Shown one piece after another: positions 3,518-36,215 of a DNA stretch of 36,215 nucleotides (position 1 is the stretch's first letter; each line of letters opens with the position of its first letter). Source of the stretch: Verrucomicrobiales bacterium (GTDB taxonomy: Bacteria; Verrucomicrobiota; Verrucomicrobiia; Limisphaerales; F1-80-MAGS106); NCBI GenBank assembly GCA_005805305.1, contig SYMW01000290.1, forward strand, positions 1 through 36,215, given 5' to 3'. The notes below the pieces were generated by a model, which was given only the letters and a program-made list of their open reading frames with translations, was not told the DNA's origin and made no database searches. The position numbers were made by a program, and so were the translations under genes.

Positions 3518-4942
3518 ATGAACGACACTCGAACCCGGCGGTTGGCGGTGTTGAACGTGGTGGGGCTCAGCAAATCCGTGCTGGGTTTGCTGACTCCCAG
3601 AATAGGCTCGTTGGCGCGGGATGGCGCCCTGTGCCTCATACGGCCCGCGTTTCCGGCGGTGACCTGCACCGCCCAGTCGAACTACCTCACAGGAAAACCG
3701 CCCGCCGGCCATGGAATAGTCGGGAACGGCTGGTTTGACCGTTCGCTCGCGGAGGTGCAGTTCTGGAAACAATCCAATGCGCTAGTCGCCGCTCCGAAGG
3801 TTTGGGAAGACCTCAGGCTTCTCCGCCCCGGTCTCACGTGCGCCAAATTGTTTTGGTGGTACAACATGTACTCAACCGCCGATTACTCGATCACGCCGCG
3901 GCCCATGTATCCCGCCGACGGCCGCAAGGTGTTCGATGTTTATTCCTGGCCTTACTCGATCCGTACGGAGATTAAAGCGGAGCTGGGAAGTTTTCCTTTC
4001 CCGACGTTTTGGGGCCCCGCGGCCGGCGTGAAAAGCCCCCAGGGCGAGCCCGAGGCGGCTTCCGCCTGGATCGCGGCGTCGGCCCGTTGGATAGAGAACC
4101 GGTATCGTCCCCATCTCAGTTTGGTTTACTTGCCTCACTTGGACTACAATTTGCAGCGGTTCGGAACCAAAGATCCGCGGGTTGAGGATGACATTCGCCG
4201 CGTGGACACGCTGGTCGGGGGGTTGCTAGATTTTTATCGGGAGCGGGACGTCGAAGTGCTGGTGTTGTCGGAGTACGGCATCACGGATGTCGATCATCCC
4301 GTGCATCTGAACCGGCTTTTTCGATCGCAAGGATGGCTCGCGATCAAGGAGGAACTGGGCCTTGAGCAGTTGGACACGGGAGCCAGCCAGGCGTTCGCGG
4401 TGGCTGACCATCAAGTCGCTCATGTGTATGTCAAGGATCCACAGCTCATTCCTGTCGTGCGTGACTTTCTGCTCCAGCAGCCAGGCATACAGGAAGTCCT
4501 GGGGGCCTGGGAGAAACCCTCGTGGGGAATCGACCACCCGCGAGCCGGCGATCTCGTCGCCGTCGCGGCGCCCAGGTCCTGGTTCACTTATTATTACTGG
4601 AATGAGGATGCCCTCGCGCCGGACTTCGCACGATGTGTCGACATCCATCGGAAGCCGGGTTATGATCCCGTTGAACTCTTCCTGGATCCCGACATTCCGG
4701 CGGTGAAGCTCAAGATCTTGCTCAAGCTGCTGCGCAAAAAACTGGGCTTCCGCATGTTGATGGACGTGATCCCTTTGAACGCCGGGTTGGTGCGGGGCTC
4801 CCACGGAAGAAGGCCGGAGGACAAGGGTGACTGGCCTGTGATGTTGTCGACGCGCGCCGGCGCGTTTGGCGGCGCCGAGGAGATGGATTCGCTCGATGTG
4901 GCCCGGGCCATCAAAGCCGGAATGGGAATCAGCGACCCATGA
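3518..4942 (+). CDS. eboF: alkaline phosphatase-superfamily (nucleotide pyrophosphatase/phosphodiesterase-like) protein, EboF-type
   Basis: FPAVTCTAQSNYLTGKPPAGHGIVGNGWFDR, YLPHLDYNLQRFG, LSEYGITDVDHPVHLNR and AVADHQVAHVYV are AlkP/PDE motifs. Lies directly downstream of the eboD-like gene. Confidence 0.72.
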   Translation: MNDTRTRRLAVLNVVGLSKSVLGLLTPRIGSLARDGALCLIRPAFPAVTCTAQSNYLTGKPPAGHGIVGNGWFDRSLAEVQFWKQSNALVAAPKVWEDLRLLRPGLTCAKLFWWYNMYSTADYSITPRPMYPADGRKVFDVYSWPYSIRTEIKAELGSFPFPTFWGPAAGVKSPQGEPEAASAWIAASARWIENRYRPHLSLVYLPHLDYNLQRFGTKDPRVEDDIRRVDTLVGGLLDFYRERDVEVLVLSEYGITDVDHPVHLNRLFRSQGWLAIKEELGLEQLDTGASQAFAVADHQVAHVYVKDPQLIPVVRDFLLQQPGIQEVLGAWEKPSWGIDHPRAGDLVAVAAPRSWFTYYYWNEDALAPDFARCVDIHRKPGYDPVELFLDPDIPAVKLKILLKLLRKKLGFRMLMDVIPLNAGLVRGSHGRRPEDKGDWPVMLSTRAGAFGGAEEMDSLDVARAIKAGMGISDP

Positions 4943-11616: not shown

Positions 11617-12942
11617 GTGCTGTTCCCTTCCAAGGCTGAGATCCAGGCGCGCCAGACGGATCGCTTGAGACGGCTTCTCCGAGAATTGAAGGATCGAAAT
11701 CGCTTTTACTCCGAGCGCCTTCTTCGATCCGGGCTCGAGGCGGGCACCGTCACGCGAGATTTGTTCACCGAACGGTTCCCACTCTGTTCGAAAGCCGATT
11801 TCGCGGCCGATCAAGAGGCGGCTCCTCCGTTTGGAACGAACCTGACCCATCCCTTGGAGGCCTACTCCAGATGCCACCAAACAAGCGGGACTTCGGGGCG
11901 CCCCATTCGATGGCTGGACACGCCCGAAAGCTGGAGCGCGATGGTGGACCAATGGAGCGAAGTGTTTCGTGCGGCAGGTGTGGGAAAAGGGGATCGGGTT
12001 TACTGCGCTTTTTCCTTCGGGCCATTTCTCGGGTTTTGGCTGGCATTCGAGGCGGCTGGGAGAGTGGGCTGCCTCAGTTTGCCCGGTGGTGGGCTTGGAA
12101 GCGCCGCCCGGGTTCGCTCCATCTTGGAATTCGGCGCCACGGTGCTGTGCGCGACGCCGACGTATGCCCTCCGCCTGGGGGATGTGGCCGCGGCGGAAGG
12201 CTTGGATCTAACCGCATCGCGAGTGCGCCTGATCGTGGTGGCGGGGGAAACCGGAGGAAGCCTTCCCGCGATCCGAGAGCGGATTCGCTGTCTGTGGCCC
12301 GGCGCCCGGGTCTTTGATCATCACGGGATGACGGAGGTTGGTCCGGTCACTTACGAATGCCCAAAGCACCCGGGGCTTTTGCACGTGATGGAGGATGACT
12401 TCCTCGCCGAGATTTTGGATCCCGTCACGCAAGCCCCGGCGCCTGCCGGCCAGACCGGAGAATTGGTGCTGACCACGCTGAGTCGCAACGCCTCACCCGC
12501 CTTGCGATACAGGACGGGTGACCTCGTTCGGGCCCGCTCATTTTCCGGCGGCACGGGCGCGGGTCAGGTGTCGGCGGATGGAGTCTGTGATTGCGGTCGC
12601 AGCCAGCTCGGGTTGGAAGGAGGCATCCTGGGTCGATGCGACGACATGGTCGTCGTGCGGGGGGTGAACGTCTATCCCTCCGCTGTCGAAGCGTTGATTC
12701 GAGTTGAGGCCGAGGTGGCGGAGTATCGAGTCCGGTTCGAGGAACGCCAATCGATGTTGGAAATGGAAATAGACTTGGAACCTACCCCGGGCTGCGCCGA
12801 TTTGGCGGCACTGGTGAGTCGCGTGGCGGAGCGGTTGCGCGACCACCTGGCATTGCGCGTTTCCATTCGAACCGTCCCTCCTGGCGAGTTGCCGCGTTTC
12901 GAGATGAAAGCGCGCCGGTGGTTGAAACCCGTGGCGCATTGA
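11617..12942 (+). CDS. phenylacetate-CoA ligase-like AMP-binding enzyme
   Basis: RLRRLLRELKDRNRFYSERL, SRCHQTSGTSGRPIRWLDT (P-loop), DHHGMTEVGPVTYEC, LRYRTGDLVRA, GRCDDMVVVRGVNVYPSAVEALI. GTG start. Confidence 0.88.
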   Translation: MLFPSKAEIQARQTDRLRRLLRELKDRNRFYSERLLRSGLEAGTVTRDLFTERFPLCSKADFAADQEAAPPFGTNLTHPLEAYSRCHQTSGTSGRPIRWLDTPESWSAMVDQWSEVFRAAGVGKGDRVYCAFSFGPFLGFWLAFEAAGRVGCLSLPGGGLGSAARVRSILEFGATVLCATPTYALRLGDVAAAEGLDLTASRVRLIVVAGETGGSLPAIRERIRCLWPGARVFDHHGMTEVGPVTYECPKHPGLLHVMEDDFLAEILDPVTQAPAPAGQTGELVLTTLSRNASPALRYRTGDLVRARSFSGGTGAGQVSADGVCDCGRSQLGLEGGILGRCDDMVVVRGVNVYPSAVEALIRVEAEVAEYRVRFEERQSMLEMEIDLEPTPGCADLAALVSRVAERLRDHLALRVSIRTVPPGELPRFEMKARRWLKPVAH

Positions 12943-13068
12943 AATTCTCTGGCGTCCCCGTCCCGTTAAGCCGTGACCATGCAAGACGCTTCCCTCGCCA
13001 AGCCGTGTGAGCTCGCTCAATTGGCTGGCGAATTCAAGTTCGACTCTTTACAACTCACCCCCTGTTGA

Positions 13069-14268
13069 ATGAAAAAGCCTTCACTCGTCATCATCTTTTT
13101 GACTGTCTTCATCGATTTGATTGGGTTTGGCATCGTGTTGCCGTTGCTGCCCATGTACAGCACGCGGTTCGGAGCGGAGGGCTTTTGGATTGGCTGCATC
13201 ATCGCTTCGTTTTCGATCATGCAATTCATCTTCGCGCCTTGGTGGGGGCGATTGTCCGACCGCATCGGCAGACGTCCCGTCTTGCTGATTAGCAACGCCG
13301 GTTCGGCGTGTTCCTACGCCATTTTCGCGCTGGCGGCACGCTACAGCGGTGACACAGGACTTCTGTTGCTGATTCTTTCCCGAGTTTTCGCCGGGATTTG
13401 CGGCGCCAACTTATCCGTCGCGTCCGCTTACATCGCTGATATCACTCCCGTTGAAACGAGGTCAAAAAGCATGGGCTTGATCGGCATGGCTTTCGGTTTG
13501 GGATTTATCCTCGGGCCCGTGCTTGGTGCTTTGAGCGCGGGCTGGTTCGGGCTCTCCGGCCCGGGATGGGTCGCGGCGGGATTTTGCTTGTTCAACTTTT
13601 TGCTTGGCTGTGTCATTTTGGTTGAGAGCCGCAAGCCAGGCTCGGAGCAAGCGCCGAAGCGGCCGCGCGCCAAACAGTGGCTGCACACCTTGGCCAAACC
13701 GAAGGTCGGGTTCTTGATAGGCGTCTACTTCCTGGCGACGTTCTGTTTCACTTGCTTTGAGAGCACGTTCAGCCTGTTCTTGGAGAAAAGCCCCTATTTC
13801 GGGTATTCGGAAAAACATGTGGGCTACCTTTTCGCCTATTGCGGCATTGTGTCGGCGCTGGTCCAAGGGGGCGGAGTCGGGCGGCTCATCAAGCGATTTG
13901 GCGAGCCGAAACTGATAGCCTGGAGCTTGGTCGTCGTCGCTGTGAGCCTGGGCATGCTGCCTTTCATGACCAGCCTCGGCGGATTGCTGCTGGGCCTTGG
14001 ATTGTTCGCCGCAGGTTCCGGGATCAACCGGCCACCCACTTTTGGGCTGATCTCGATCAGCAGTTCGGCTTCGGAGCAGGGCGAGGCTTTGGGGGTGGCT
14101 CAAAGCGCGGGCAGCTTGGCCCGGATCATCGGACCATTGTTCGCCACTTCGTTCTACAAAATAAAACCCGCAGCGCCCTACATTGCGTGCGCCATCATCG
14201 CCTTCATCGCCGGCTGCATTGCGTGGAGATACCTCTGCAAACCCTCCGCATCGAATCAATCGCCGTAA
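13069..14268 (+). CDS. MFS transporter (Tet/TCR-like)
   Basis: IIFLTVFIDLIGFGIVLPLLPMYS...FAPWWGRLSDRIGRRPVLL (loop 2-3 motif), 12 TM-like segments. Confidence 0.9.
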   Translation: MKKPSLVIIFLTVFIDLIGFGIVLPLLPMYSTRFGAEGFWIGCIIASFSIMQFIFAPWWGRLSDRIGRRPVLLISNAGSACSYAIFALAARYSGDTGLLLLILSRVFAGICGANLSVASAYIADITPVETRSKSMGLIGMAFGLGFILGPVLGALSAGWFGLSGPGWVAAGFCLFNFLLGCVILVESRKPGSEQAPKRPRAKQWLHTLAKPKVGFLIGVYFLATFCFTCFESTFSLFLEKSPYFGYSEKHVGYLFAYCGIVSALVQGGGVGRLIKRFGEPKLIAWSLVVVAVSLGMLPFMTSLGGLLLGLGLFAAGSGINRPPTFGLISISSSASEQGEALGVAQSAGSLARIIGPLFATSFYKIKPAAPYIACAIIAFIAGCIAWRYLCKPSASNQSP

Positions 14269-15227
14269 CCCCGTGGATGGGTCGAGTGCCATTTCCACGC
14301 CGAGGCGACGATGTCCTCGATCCTAGGGTGGCGTGGCCGCCACCCGAACGCCTCCCGCGCCTTGGCGGCACTCGCGACCAGGCGCGGAGGGTCTCCAGGA
14401 CGCCGAGGTTTTTCGACCGTCGAGATGTCTTTTCCCGAGACGTCGCGGCACACTTGGATGACGTCCTTCACGGAATAGCCTTCGCCATTGCCCAGGTTGA
14501 AAAAGCCACAAGGGCCGTGGCTCATCGCGAGGATGTGGGCTTGCGCAAGATCCAGCACGTGGATGTAATCCCGGATGCAGGTGCCGTCCGGAGTGGGGTA
14601 GTCCGTTCCATACAATTCGACATGAGAAGCCTGCCCTAGAGCCACGCGAAGCACGTTAGGTATCAAATGGGTTTCAATCCGATGATCCTCGCCGCGGGTC
14701 GGCGTGGCGCCGGCAGCGTTGAAGTACCTAAACGCGACGTATTCCAAGCCGTGAATTTCGTGATACCACGGGAGCATTGATTCGAAAAGGAGCTTGGATT
14801 GGCCGTAGGGATTGATGGGATGCTGGGGTAAATCTTCGGTCATGGGAATTCGGTCGGGCGGACCGTAGGTCGCGCACGTGGAGCTGAACACGAATCTGCG
14901 GACTTTGTTCGAGACGGCCGCCTCGATCAGATTCAGACCATTGGCCACGTTGTTTCGGAAGTATTTTGTGGGGTTGGTCATGGACTCCCCGACGAGGGCG
15001 CTGGCGGCGAAATGCAGCACCACTTCAGATTCGGAGCCGCGAACAGCTTTGTTAAGGCCCTCCGCATCCGAGAGATCGCCTAGCACCAGAGCCGCTCTTT
15101 CATCCACGGCGGCACGGTGCCCTTCGCTCAGGTTGTCAAAGACCGTAACCCGATGGCCTTCGTCCAACAGAGCTTCCACGCATGCCGATCCAATGTACCC
15201 CGCGCCGCCCGCCACGAAAACGTTCAT
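14256..15227 (-). CDS. galE: UDP-glucose 4-epimerase
   Basis: MNVFVAGGAGYIGSACVEALLDEGHRVTVFDNLSEGH, SSTCATYG, NPYGQSKLLFE, ALGQASHVELYGTDYPTPDGTCIRDYIHVLDLAQAH, FNLGNGEGYSVKDV. Confidence 0.96.
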   Translation of the reverse strand: MNVFVAGGAGYIGSACVEALLDEGHRVTVFDNLSEGHRAAVDERAALVLGDLSDAEGLNKAVRGSESEVVLHFAASALVGESMTNPTKYFRNNVANGLNLIEAAVSNKVRRFVFSSTCATYGPPDRIPMTEDLPQHPINPYGQSKLLFESMLPWYHEIHGLEYVAFRYFNAAGATPTRGEDHRIETHLIPNVLRVALGQASHVELYGTDYPTPDGTCIRDYIHVLDLAQAHILAMSHGPCGFFNLGNGEGYSVKDVIQVCRDVSGKDISTVEKPRRPGDPPRLVASAAKAREAFGWRPRHPRIEDIVASAWKWHSTHPRGYGD

Positions 15228-32266: not shown

Positions 32267-32294
32267 TGGTGCGCGATACAGGGTTCGAACCTGT
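32267..32294 (-). other. tRNA 3'-end fragment (T-arm, acceptor 3' strand, CCA): candidate attachment site
   Basis: Minus strand ACAGG-TTCGAAC-CCTGT-ATCGCGC-A-CCA: a 5-bp T-stem with the canonical 7-nt loop, 7-nt acceptor strand, discriminator base and CCA. No D-arm or anticodon arm follows on the 5' side. Confidence 0.7.
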
Positions 32295-33011: not shown

Positions 33012-33441
33012 ATGAATCGAATTCTCATCCTTGTGATCGCGCTTCTTTCATTTCGTTCGTTGGCCGCCGTGACTTCAGACCTGTCGATTCGAGCTTGTGC
33101 CCAAGATCACGCTGCGTGGTGAGATTGGGACAGTGCAGAAGCTGGGATGGCGTTCGTCGCTCAGGGAGGGAGCCCAGTGGCAGGTGTTGACGAACGTGAC
33201 GCTGGGTGCCGAGGGGACGGTAGTTGTGGACTTGGCAGCGAGCTCAACAATGAGATTTTACCGCGTGTCGACTTCAGTATCGACCTCCTCGGAAATCTCC
33301 TTCGTGACGGTTGGGGATGCGGGGAACGCAGCGGACACGACGATGTATGGGGCGGTGGGTTATACGTTCCAGATACAGAAGTTCGAGTTCACGAATGCGG
33401 AGTATGTGGAGTTTTTGAACGCGGCGTCCTGGCACCAGTAA
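33012..33441 (+). pseudogene. secreted SUMF1/formylglycine-generating-enzyme-like gene, frameshifted and 3'-truncated
   Basis: MNRILILVIALLSFRSLAAVTSDLSI is a signal peptide whose frame stops at 33120. The +1 frame resumes as ELVPKITLRGEIGTVQKLGWRSSLREGAQWQVLTNVTLGAEGTVVVDLAASSTMRFYRV...FVTVGDAGNAADTTMYGAVGYTFQIQKFEFTNAEYVEFLNAAS, then ends abruptly. Confidence 0.75.
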
Positions 33442-35086
33442 TGACCTCCCAGATGTCCACGCACTTTTCCTTTGATGAAAGCTTTTCGTTCAGGATTTGC
33501 TTGATCTGGTTCAACTCGTCCTTGGCCCGGACGGTATCGGCCTTGGTGACGATGACGTCGCCAAACACGTCACAAGCTTTCTGAAACTCGATGTCGGTGA
33601 AAGACAGCCCGGAAAAGTTCCTCCGGAAATAGGGGTCAGTCAGGGATTTACGAAGCGCACGTGCTGATCGCGTCAGCAAGGAGAGCGGCTGGTTCCAGTT
33701 TTCATCCGGGGCGGTTGCAGTGAGGTCCGGGGGGGCGATCCGGTTGTAAACGGCGCGTGGTGTGATGCGCGCATCAAGGGCTTGGCCCAGGCGGCGTTCC
33801 ACCTCGTCGAGGACTACCTTGACCTTGTCTTCTGGCACAGCGTGCCCCTGCCCAAGCTGACGATACATTTCATCCAAGTCCTTCCGAATCTGCGCCGCAC
33901 GGCTGGTGATGAAGTCCTTGATGCTTTTGCCACCCAGTGCCCCGCGCAGTGCCTTCTGCCCCTCCTCATTCTTGGATTTGAGTTCCCTTTCGAGCAGACC
34001 CTTGGCCGCTTCCGGCAACCAACGGTTGCCCTGGCTCAAGGGATAGGCGAGCAGTTCCATCACATCTGTGACCTTGCGGCATTTCTCGATGGCCTTGTCC
34101 GCTGCGTCATCCAACACCTGGAGAGTGAACGACTGCTTTTGCTTGAGGGCACCAATGGTTCGCTCGGACTGCTGCCCGAGCAACGTCGCCTTGACCGGTA
34201 TGGTGAGCGGTTTGATGCGACTTGCTTCGTCCACGGTCACCAACCAGCCCCTGGCATAAACCTGCTGGAAGATCTGGCCGAGCGGATCGAGGGCTGTCTT
34301 CCCTGCATCCCAATGGACAACTTTCTCGCCATTCGCGTCACTCAATATCTCGCCGGTCACCGGGTCCACTGTGGGGCCCGGACCATCCGCAGCGTTGAGT
34401 GCGCGGCAAGCCTGGGCAAATTCCTCCCAAAGCCGCGCTGCCTCCGCATCGCCCTTCGCCGGGACCAGGTGCGGTATCTGGACTGTGGCGTCACTCAGAG
34501 GAGCTGAGCTGCTAAAGACGTGCTGAAACCACTGCCGCCAGACATCGCGCATCGCGTCGTCCGGATGGAACACGAAGTTCAGGCTGCCAACAGAAAACGA
34601 GTCATGCCCCGCGTCGCCCACCGATCCGATGCTCATGACCGTCTGACCAGTGGTCGAGTCGTGGGCCTGAACGACCGTCGGCGGCAGATTCATCCTCTTG
34701 AAGTCGGGACCAAATAGTTCCGCCATCGGCAGAACATGCACATTCAGTGTCTTCTCGATCCCATCGATCGACTTCCGCAACATGTAGATGGAGCGAAGGT
34801 GCGCCTCCCGAGTCGGACCGGCCGCGAACAAGACGAGGACCATGTGGATTTGGATTTTAGGGGCGGAGCGCAGAAGTTCATCGAGCCACGTAATCGTCTC
34901 ATCATCGACTCCCACGAGCAGGCCGCTGATCAGGTCCGCACCCGTGAAGAGCTGCCGCCCGGGTGGATGGTCGGCGTAGGCAGCCAGGCCAGCATGAACA
35001 CGCGACTCAGGCCAAATGAAAGCCGGTTTGACGGAGAGCTTTGGCACACTGCTCTGAGAGCCCCCGAAAATCTCCTTACCGTTCAT
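33389..35086 (-). CDS. hypothetical protein, tentative N-terminal PLD-like (degenerate) domain; possible defence-island protein
   Basis: 565-aa ORF. GSVGDAGHDSFSVGSLNFVFHPDDAMRDVWRQWFQHVFSSSAPLSDATVQIPHLVPAKGD resembles the second half of PLD-like domains in defence-type proteins (by eye). The C-terminal ARTPRSKTPHTPHS is antisense to the truncated SUMF1-like gene. Confidence 0.55.
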   Translation of the reverse strand: MNGKEIFGGSQSSVPKLSVKPAFIWPESRVHAGLAAYADHPPGRQLFTGADLISGLLVGVDDETITWLDELLRSAPKIQIHMVLVLFAAGPTREAHLRSIYMLRKSIDGIEKTLNVHVLPMAELFGPDFKRMNLPPTVVQAHDSTTGQTVMSIGSVGDAGHDSFSVGSLNFVFHPDDAMRDVWRQWFQHVFSSSAPLSDATVQIPHLVPAKGDAEAARLWEEFAQACRALNAADGPGPTVDPVTGEILSDANGEKVVHWDAGKTALDPLGQIFQQVYARGWLVTVDEASRIKPLTIPVKATLLGQQSERTIGALKQKQSFTLQVLDDAADKAIEKCRKVTDVMELLAYPLSQGNRWLPEAAKGLLERELKSKNEEGQKALRGALGGKSIKDFITSRAAQIRKDLDEMYRQLGQGHAVPEDKVKVVLDEVERRLGQALDARITPRAVYNRIAPPDLTATAPDENWNQPLSLLTRSARALRKSLTDPYFRRNFSGLSFTDIEFQKACDVFGDVIVTKADTVRAKDELNQIKQILNEKLSSKEKCVDIWEVITGARTPRSKTPHTPHS

Positions 35087-35592
35087 ACTCCAGCCTTTGG
35101 TGCATGCCGGAACGTAGGCCGGGGCAAGGCAGTGTTGAAAACTCCTGACAACATCATGTCGTAGAGTGCCGCCCCTCCTTCTTTGATGTCGTCAAAGTCC
35201 ACGATGAGGGTGAAGTCATTGGCGGCACTCGGTTGCTGAACGATGGCAACCCGGCCTCGCCCTGAAACCTCTGTGATTGCCACGCCTCCGGTGGGGAACA
35301 CTGCTGAGACGTCTAACGGCTCCAAATCAATCGGGGCGTCAGTAGGGCCAATTTCAGCAATGTCGTTTAGCCAAATCGGCGTCCAAGGATAGCCGTTAAT
35401 GAGGGTCGGACAGCCGCAGTCATGCAACCCAGGACGCGCGAAGAGCAGGTGATGCCAGTAAAGACTGTCGCGGCGCACAACCAACTGGCTATGGGCATCA
35501 ATCTGCGCTCGGACTTTGAATGAGGCGGCGGAGGTGAACGGCGACAACATCAATGATGTCATGAGAATTGTGAGAGTAACGAGTGATTTCAT
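35083..35592 (-). CDS. hypothetical secreted protein
   Basis: MKSLVTLTILMTSLMLSPFTSAAS signal peptide. The stop overlaps the next gene's ATG (ATGA). The ORF-track start at 35679 is probably too far upstream. Confidence 0.6.
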   Translation of the reverse strand: MKSLVTLTILMTSLMLSPFTSAASFKVRAQIDAHSQLVVRRDSLYWHHLLFARPGLHDCGCPTLINGYPWTPIWLNDIAEIGPTDAPIDLEPLDVSAVFPTGGVAITEVSGRGRVAIVQQPSAANDFTLIVDFDDIKEGGAALYDMMLSGVFNTALPRPTFRHAPKAGV

Positions 35593-35725
35593 TTTCAGAT
35601 TGTTTTTGGGAGTTTGAAAGTGGGATTGCGATTGGCGACGGACAGTGTTTGTTCGTTTTGACAGGTGACGTTTAGTCATAACAGCGATCCACGGAACAGA
35701 AGGGGCGCGAACCTAACGCACCCTC

Positions 35726-35834
35726 CTCAGAGGCACCGCGAAGCGCCCATGCAAAGAAGTAACATCAAGCCGCGCCCGATTGGGCGCGTGCTCGACGCGG
35801 TCTCTTTGCATTTGAAAATTCGCGGTTTTCTGAG
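35726..35834. other. 109-bp nested imperfect palindrome (structured DNA/RNA element)
   Basis: Outer arms CTCAG-aggca-CCGCGAA / TTCGCGG-tttt-CTGAG. Middle arms ATGCAAAGA (35749-35757) / TCTTTGCAT (35803-35811). Apical hairpin CGCGCCC-GATT-GGGCGCG (35771-35788). Confidence 0.75.
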
Positions 35835-36150
35835 AAGACCCGCAGCCGAAGCTACGCAAATTGAATTTTCTTCGTTTCTGTTACATAGAAAGTATCTGAA
35901 CCTTGTTAAACCGGAGTTTGCTCGATTACAAGTGCCATGCACACCCCTCCTCAGGGCAGAACCCTCCTTAAAGCTGGATGGAAACGGTTGGAATTAAAAT
36001 GTCAGAATAAGTCCTTCCAGTTTGCGTTTGGGCTTTGGCTCAATAAGCTCTGCTCCACGCCATGCTCTGGATTACCCAATGCCAAGAAGAGTTGTACCCC
36101 GGCACACTATTGCTCTGGGCCGTTCCGAATTGCCAGCGTTCGAACCGAAA

Positions 36151-36215
36151 ATGATACGTCTCGAATCCATTAGACCTGGCGTGGCGTTGCAAGGGCTTGA
36201 ACCGAACGTGGTTAG
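36151..36215 (+). CDS. start of a gene, possibly SNF2/DEAD-box helicase-like, truncated by window edge
   Basis: MIRLESIRPGVALQGLEPNVV resembles the N-terminal signature of a bacterial SNF2-type helicase family often seen in defence islands (from memory). Only about 21 codons are visible. Confidence 0.4.
   Translation, partial: MIRLESIRPGVALQGLEPNVV

Follow-up and report, generated by a model that had tools for sequence, protein, structure and literature searches.

What kind of system begins at the right-hand end of this verrucomicrobial contig? The stretch analysed here (the window, 36,215 nucleotides) comprises the whole of contig C272, from a Verrucomicrobiales assembly (4.56 Mb in 319 contigs, 82% complete), and the locus of interest sits at its end, where the sequence stops at 36215. 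An open reading frame (ORF) for a 565-residue protein lies on the minus strand (33389..35086), and a second frame opens divergently on the plus strand at 36151, of which the first 21 codons are present (36151..36215). An earlier note made from the sequence alone had read these as a phospholipase D (PLD)-like protein and an SNF2-type helicase, and had proposed, as a lead, that the two could form a phage-defence core; it likened the helicase to those of DISARM-like loci.

In our reading (probability about 0.62), a mobile defence island begins at the contig end and carries a two-domain protein with a dead PLD domain and, divergent from it, a helicase of the HmaA type, which is most likely the first gene of an Hma/type-1 BREX-related operon. 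The most likely role of the 565-residue protein is that of an accessory of mobile defence islands, catalytically dead and serving to bind nucleic acid or as a scaffold; on this reading it is neither a nuclease nor a part of DISARM. The direct observations behind this reading are the fold similarity of the protein, the loss of its catalytic motif, the island contexts of its relatives and the identity of the helicase start.

The helicase start at position 36151

The peptide MIRLESIRPGVALQGLEPNVV (36151-36213, plus strand) was scored against 283 ORFs from the retrieved loci. Its top nine scores all fall on the N-termini of proteins of approximately 1,150-1,370 residues that contain a NOV_C (DUF3883) domain, and the best of them (54, in L059) exceeds the maximum of 48 obtained over 100 shuffled peptides. 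When the nine helicase N-termini were turned into a position-specific profile, with the window peptide left out, MIRLESIRPGVALQGLEPNVV scored 37.4; of 33,151 start-codon peptides, the highest-scoring one from outside the family reached 16.0. Three of the corresponding helicases (L059, L063 and L068) match the PADLOC HmaA model over their full length with E = 0 and 1,637-1,965 bits, as against about 400 bits for DrmD. Within the TUDOR-SNF2-Helicase_C-NOV_C layout of these proteins, the N-terminal 21 residues, which begin the TUDOR domain, match strongly and the core lies beyond the contig end. Judged by this comparison, the 21 codons encode the beginning of an HmaA-type SNF2/NOV_C helicase, at a similarity far beyond chance.

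DUF1156 methyltransferase genes occur behind the HmaA-type helicase in L068, L072 and L084 (in L072 by similarity to L068), as do DUF499 ATPase genes in L083, L058 and L084. The Hma system is known from PADLOC (PMC8565338), and has been recast as a type-1 DUF499-centred BREX-related system in PMC12839542, according to which the HmaA helicase has a TUDOR domain at its start, an active nuclease at its end and an experimentally confirmed role in phage defence. The window resembles Hma in that its helicase start matches HmaA N-termini and in that loci of the same order hold the helicase, DUF1156 methyltransferase and DUF499 ATPase genes. It differs in showing 21 helicase codons only and in having a PLD-like partner that the sections of PMC8565338 and PMC12839542 at hand do not describe as part of Hma.

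Because the helicase start matches HmaA, the earlier call of an SNF2-type helicase proves right, and the DISARM-like label gives way to an Hma/BREX-related one. DISARM comprises the PLD protein DrmC, the SNF2 helicase DrmD and the methyltransferase DrmMI, and the locus recalls it in that a protein with a PLD fold neighbours a BrxHII/RapA-type SNF2 helicase. However, the helicase relatives score up to 1965 bits with HmaA and 399 bits with DrmD, and their loci continue with DUF1156 and DUF499 genes. The visible part of the locus shows no DrmA or DrmB gene. The 565-residue protein lacks both a DrmC match and the catalytic motif, and its helical part is C-terminal, whereas DrmC usually has an N-terminal 4-helix bundle (PMC12458937, in the section at hand). 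The DISARM label was rejected on the PADLOC scores.

The remainder of the helicase was found nowhere else in the assembly, and a NOV_C search of the assembly was empty. A tblastn search of plasmids with the 21-mer also gave no match, although the query is probably too short for it. On another contig of the same genome (C104:3817-10772, L091), an HmaA-like N-terminus is cut after approximately 145 codons, and a DUF499-like gene, named by eye, is split by a frameshift. From its sequence this locus is the remains of a second, decayed Hma-type locus. The HmaA-like fragment was considered as the missing continuation of the frame at 36151 and ruled out, as its N-terminus differs and it belongs to another gene. 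In L084, a repeated ORF peptide (SPVPFGVELLQL, 12870-13797) looks like the translation of a CRISPR array, and a Cas2-like ORF follows at 14437.

The two domains of the 565-residue protein

The 565-residue ORF has three full-length relatives (L002, L008 and L015) with 41-53% identity over its length, which establishes it as a gene. The first, in a Lentisphaerae genome, was found by scanning 84,980 species genomes for close relatives; searches by order, phylum, class and related class (1,471 genomes) recovered it again (as G459) and added the other two. Since these searches returned so few relatives, the family is rare. The protein matches no model in Pfam, NCBIfam or PADLOC, searches of plasmids, phages and viral contigs returned no relative, and a PDB sequence search gave chance matches only. 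Weak matches to the four-sequence profile in G620, G701, G734 and G885 were rejected; by eye, G620 and G701 hold M13-type peptidases, and the G885 match is a repetitive frame.

The N-terminal domain (about residues 45-235; 34382..34954, minus strand) is described from Foldseek matches and a motif scan. The AlphaFold model, made with four sequences, has a low mean predicted local distance difference test score (pLDDT) of 56 and reaches roughly 70-79 in residues 50-120. The PLD-like fold expected by the earlier note was recovered from this low-confidence model. Nearly all of its top Foldseek matches belong to the PLD superfamily, with the SauUSI restriction endonuclease (probability 1.00), human FAM83 (BJ-TSA-9; 1.00) and polyphosphate kinase (PPK1; 0.99) leading among PDB entries, followed by the BfiI restriction endonuclease (0.94), phospholipase D (0.94) and PLD3 (0.80). 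The order of strands and helices in the model fits a PLD half-domain. A PLD fold for residues 45-235 is thus supported at the level of predicted structure.

The catalytic residues of this fold are not in place. By eye, the strand pair around QAHDSTTGQTVMSIGSVGD sits where active relatives have their H-x-K and GSxN strands; a PLD protein in L008 is an example of these relatives (HPKVFLLAAKRRGLLLIGSAN). The motif scan finds H-x-K at the active-site position in none of the four family proteins (the sole HLK, at residue 95 of the L002 protein, lies away from it), and the GSxN position now reads GSVGD, GAVGD, GSIGD or GSCAN, with GSVGD in the 565-residue protein itself. The combination of H-x-K-x4-D with GSxN that marks PLD nucleases is therefore absent from the family, and the PADLOC DrmC model gives no match to the 565-residue protein at E<=1. 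The segment GSLNFVFHPDD, which had first suggested a PLD-like protein, does fall within the PLD-fold domain, but its GSLN varies among relatives (ASFN, SSFN) and does not correspond to the catalytic GSxN. A comparable case may be the DUF1669 pseudo-PLD domain of FAM83, which is not known to have PLD activity and is taken to act by binding partners. It shares the PLD fold and is among the top Foldseek matches; FAM83 is, however, eukaryotic, carries other attached domains and has no demonstrated sequence relation to the 565-residue family.

The C-terminal helical domain (about residues 263-565; 33392..34300, minus strand), recognized by homology and AlphaFold, contains the best-conserved part of the family (residues ~263-551, 46-60% identity). 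It recurs at 32-36% identity as the last ~290 residues of three proteins from the same bacterial order that start with a receiver (REC) domain (L009, L010 and L011). The L010 protein lies in a flagellar/CheA-type locus and the L011 protein beside a hybrid sensor kinase, both neighbourhoods being named by eye. The middle part of these REC proteins looks HPt-like by eye. With seven sequences, AlphaFold models the domain at pLDDT 84 and a predicted template modelling score (pTM) of 0.77. Foldseek against the PDB finds nothing for it (best probability 0.06). In a viral structure library, DUF3150-type phage proteins match its predicted fold (E 2.8e-4, probability 1.00, TM-score 0.36), but at 12% identity and with no profile match: the DUF3150 Pfam model hits none of the seven members, and PHROGs likewise give no support. 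This resemblance is a lead from fold alone and could reflect a shared helical topology.

Defence islands and competing explanations

All three other islands that hold full-length relatives contain defence loci, which together with the HmaA-type helicase start bears out the defence-type setting proposed for the window. In L002, a 1,471-residue DrmMI/PglX-like methyltransferase and an LmuB/DUF2326-like ATPase precede the relative on one strand. The LmuB-like ATPase seems to be split by a frameshift (L002:4294-4618), with its N-terminus in frame 4294-4590. In L008, also on one strand, a YprA/DruE-like helicase and a RelE-like-UvrD helicase are followed by the relative and then by AddB-like, AddA-like and ZacA/ZacB-like PLD genes. 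The pairing of a YprA-like with a RelE-like-GajB-like helicase is the hallmark of ARMADA type II (PMC12458937), and the L008 relative comes directly after such a pair (in ARMADA, the YprA-family ArmC and the RelE-GajB ArmD). The section of PMC12458937 at hand does not, however, mention the 565-residue family. In L015/L019, the relative follows a PLD-SNF2 helicase, an IIG-type methyltransferase with an AbiEi-like end, AbiEii, a SLATT-like protein (by eye), a SMODS nucleotidyltransferase and an HNH gene.

This last island, in genome G423, is about 19 kb long and mobile in layout. A 48-bp repeat of the 3' part of a tRNA-Met occurs at 55,852-55,899 and again within the intact tRNA-Met at 74,755-74,802 (L015:3853-3900 and L019:8756-8832 in locus coordinates). 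The relative lies between the two copies, and an integrase-like ORF adjoins the first copy on its inner side.

A defence context in all three islands with no common partner points to an accessory or passenger and not to a fixed subunit. The family was not seen in any HmaA locus retrieved, and the earlier idea that the PLD protein and the SNF2 helicase form one core finds no support in this comparison. If our reading is correct, the HmaA-type helicase would head an operon of helicase-nuclease, DUF1156 N6-adenine methyltransferase and DUF499 ATPase. The 565-residue protein would not cut DNA; its dead PLD domain would bind nucleic acid or a partner, its C-terminal domain would pass on a signal or tether a complex, and the whole would be accessory to the restriction-type machine of its island, whichever that is.

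Several observations weigh against this reading. Only 21 codons carry the HmaA assignment. The 82%-complete assembly contains no DUF1156 (HmaB) gene; this gene and the DUF499 gene would lie past the contig end. The full-length model is weak, and its PLD matches have Foldseek E-values of 4e-3 to 0.5. With just four full-length members known, the argument from conservation is thin, and partners that change from island to island with none shared show no fixed system.

Three other explanations of the 565-residue protein have to be set beside the accessory role. An active atypical PLD nuclease, cutting invading DNA beside the helicase in the manner of DrmC or the PLD-helicase SauUSI, could be argued from the restriction nucleases SauUSI and BfiI among the best fold matches and from the fact that three of four members have a histidine close to where H-x-K is expected. 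That histidine is missing in L015, though, and with the altered GSxN position, no H-x-K at the site and no DrmC match this explanation is very unlikely; we rejected it for the loss of the catalytic motif. A regulator or sensor, with the C-terminal domain in control of an operon or a partner and the dead PLD domain as input module in place of the receiver, is a possible if doubtful reading. It draws on the same domain ending the REC proteins, one of them in a flagellar/CheA locus, but the domain has no known DNA-binding or catalytic motif. Unrelated cargo riding in defence islands would explain why the neighbours differ in all four islands, and islands in general hold such cargo. We think it rather improbable, since the L008 copy lies within a run of overlapping defence genes and the L002 copy is downstream of methyltransferase and ATPase genes on the same strand.

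Beyond the accessory role preferred here lies a more speculative proposal, which we would not expect to hold. The family might be a new class of defence accessory, with a dead PLD domain and a response-regulator-type output domain, that acts as a sensor or adaptor plugging into the Hma/BREX-related, ARMADA-like and LmuB-like ATPase plus methyltransferase systems of this phylum. Should our reading of the family hold, defence islands in a poorly studied group of bacteria would be marked by a family absent from Pfam, NCBIfam and PADLOC, in which immunity has borrowed a signalling-type domain. A structure of the C-terminal domain, whose model is confident but which has no solved relative, would inform two fields, given that the domain also occurs in chemotaxis-type loci.

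The island edge and the remaining genes

A 198-residue ORF with a signal-peptide-like N-terminus (35083..35679, minus strand), which corresponds to the secreted protein of the earlier note, lies upstream of the 565-residue ORF and shares four bases with it (ATGA, 35083-35086). The overlap suggests that translation of this secreted-type protein is coupled to that of the 565-residue protein. The 198-residue protein has no relative among the loci retrieved for comparison and no visible tie to defence. At the other end, a truncated plus-strand frame (33097..33441), whose start resembles the SUMF1/formylglycine-generating-enzyme type by eye, breaks off on meeting the 565-residue gene; this frame has no significant Pfam match. 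Its antisense encodes the last ~15 codons of the 565-residue gene, the junction being placed where homology ends. Because the gene runs over this antisense, its tail beyond residue ~551 is unlike its relatives.

The GC content of the last 4 kb (0.53-0.60, versus 0.54-0.64 in the rest of the window) is not strongly anomalous. No complete tRNA was found in the window. Further left, however, the sequence reads as a tRNA 3'-end fragment with T-arm, acceptor strand and CCA (the last ~27 bases; 32267..32293, minus strand), which has no Rfam match and is unique both in the window and in the whole assembly. This fragment is a probable attachment (att) remnant at the left edge of the island. If the island targets a tRNA, it would be the distal att copy, and the island may begin there. 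The fragment has the same geometry as attL of the G423 island that holds a relative, and its orientation would place the element to its right, over the region of the 565-residue and helicase genes.
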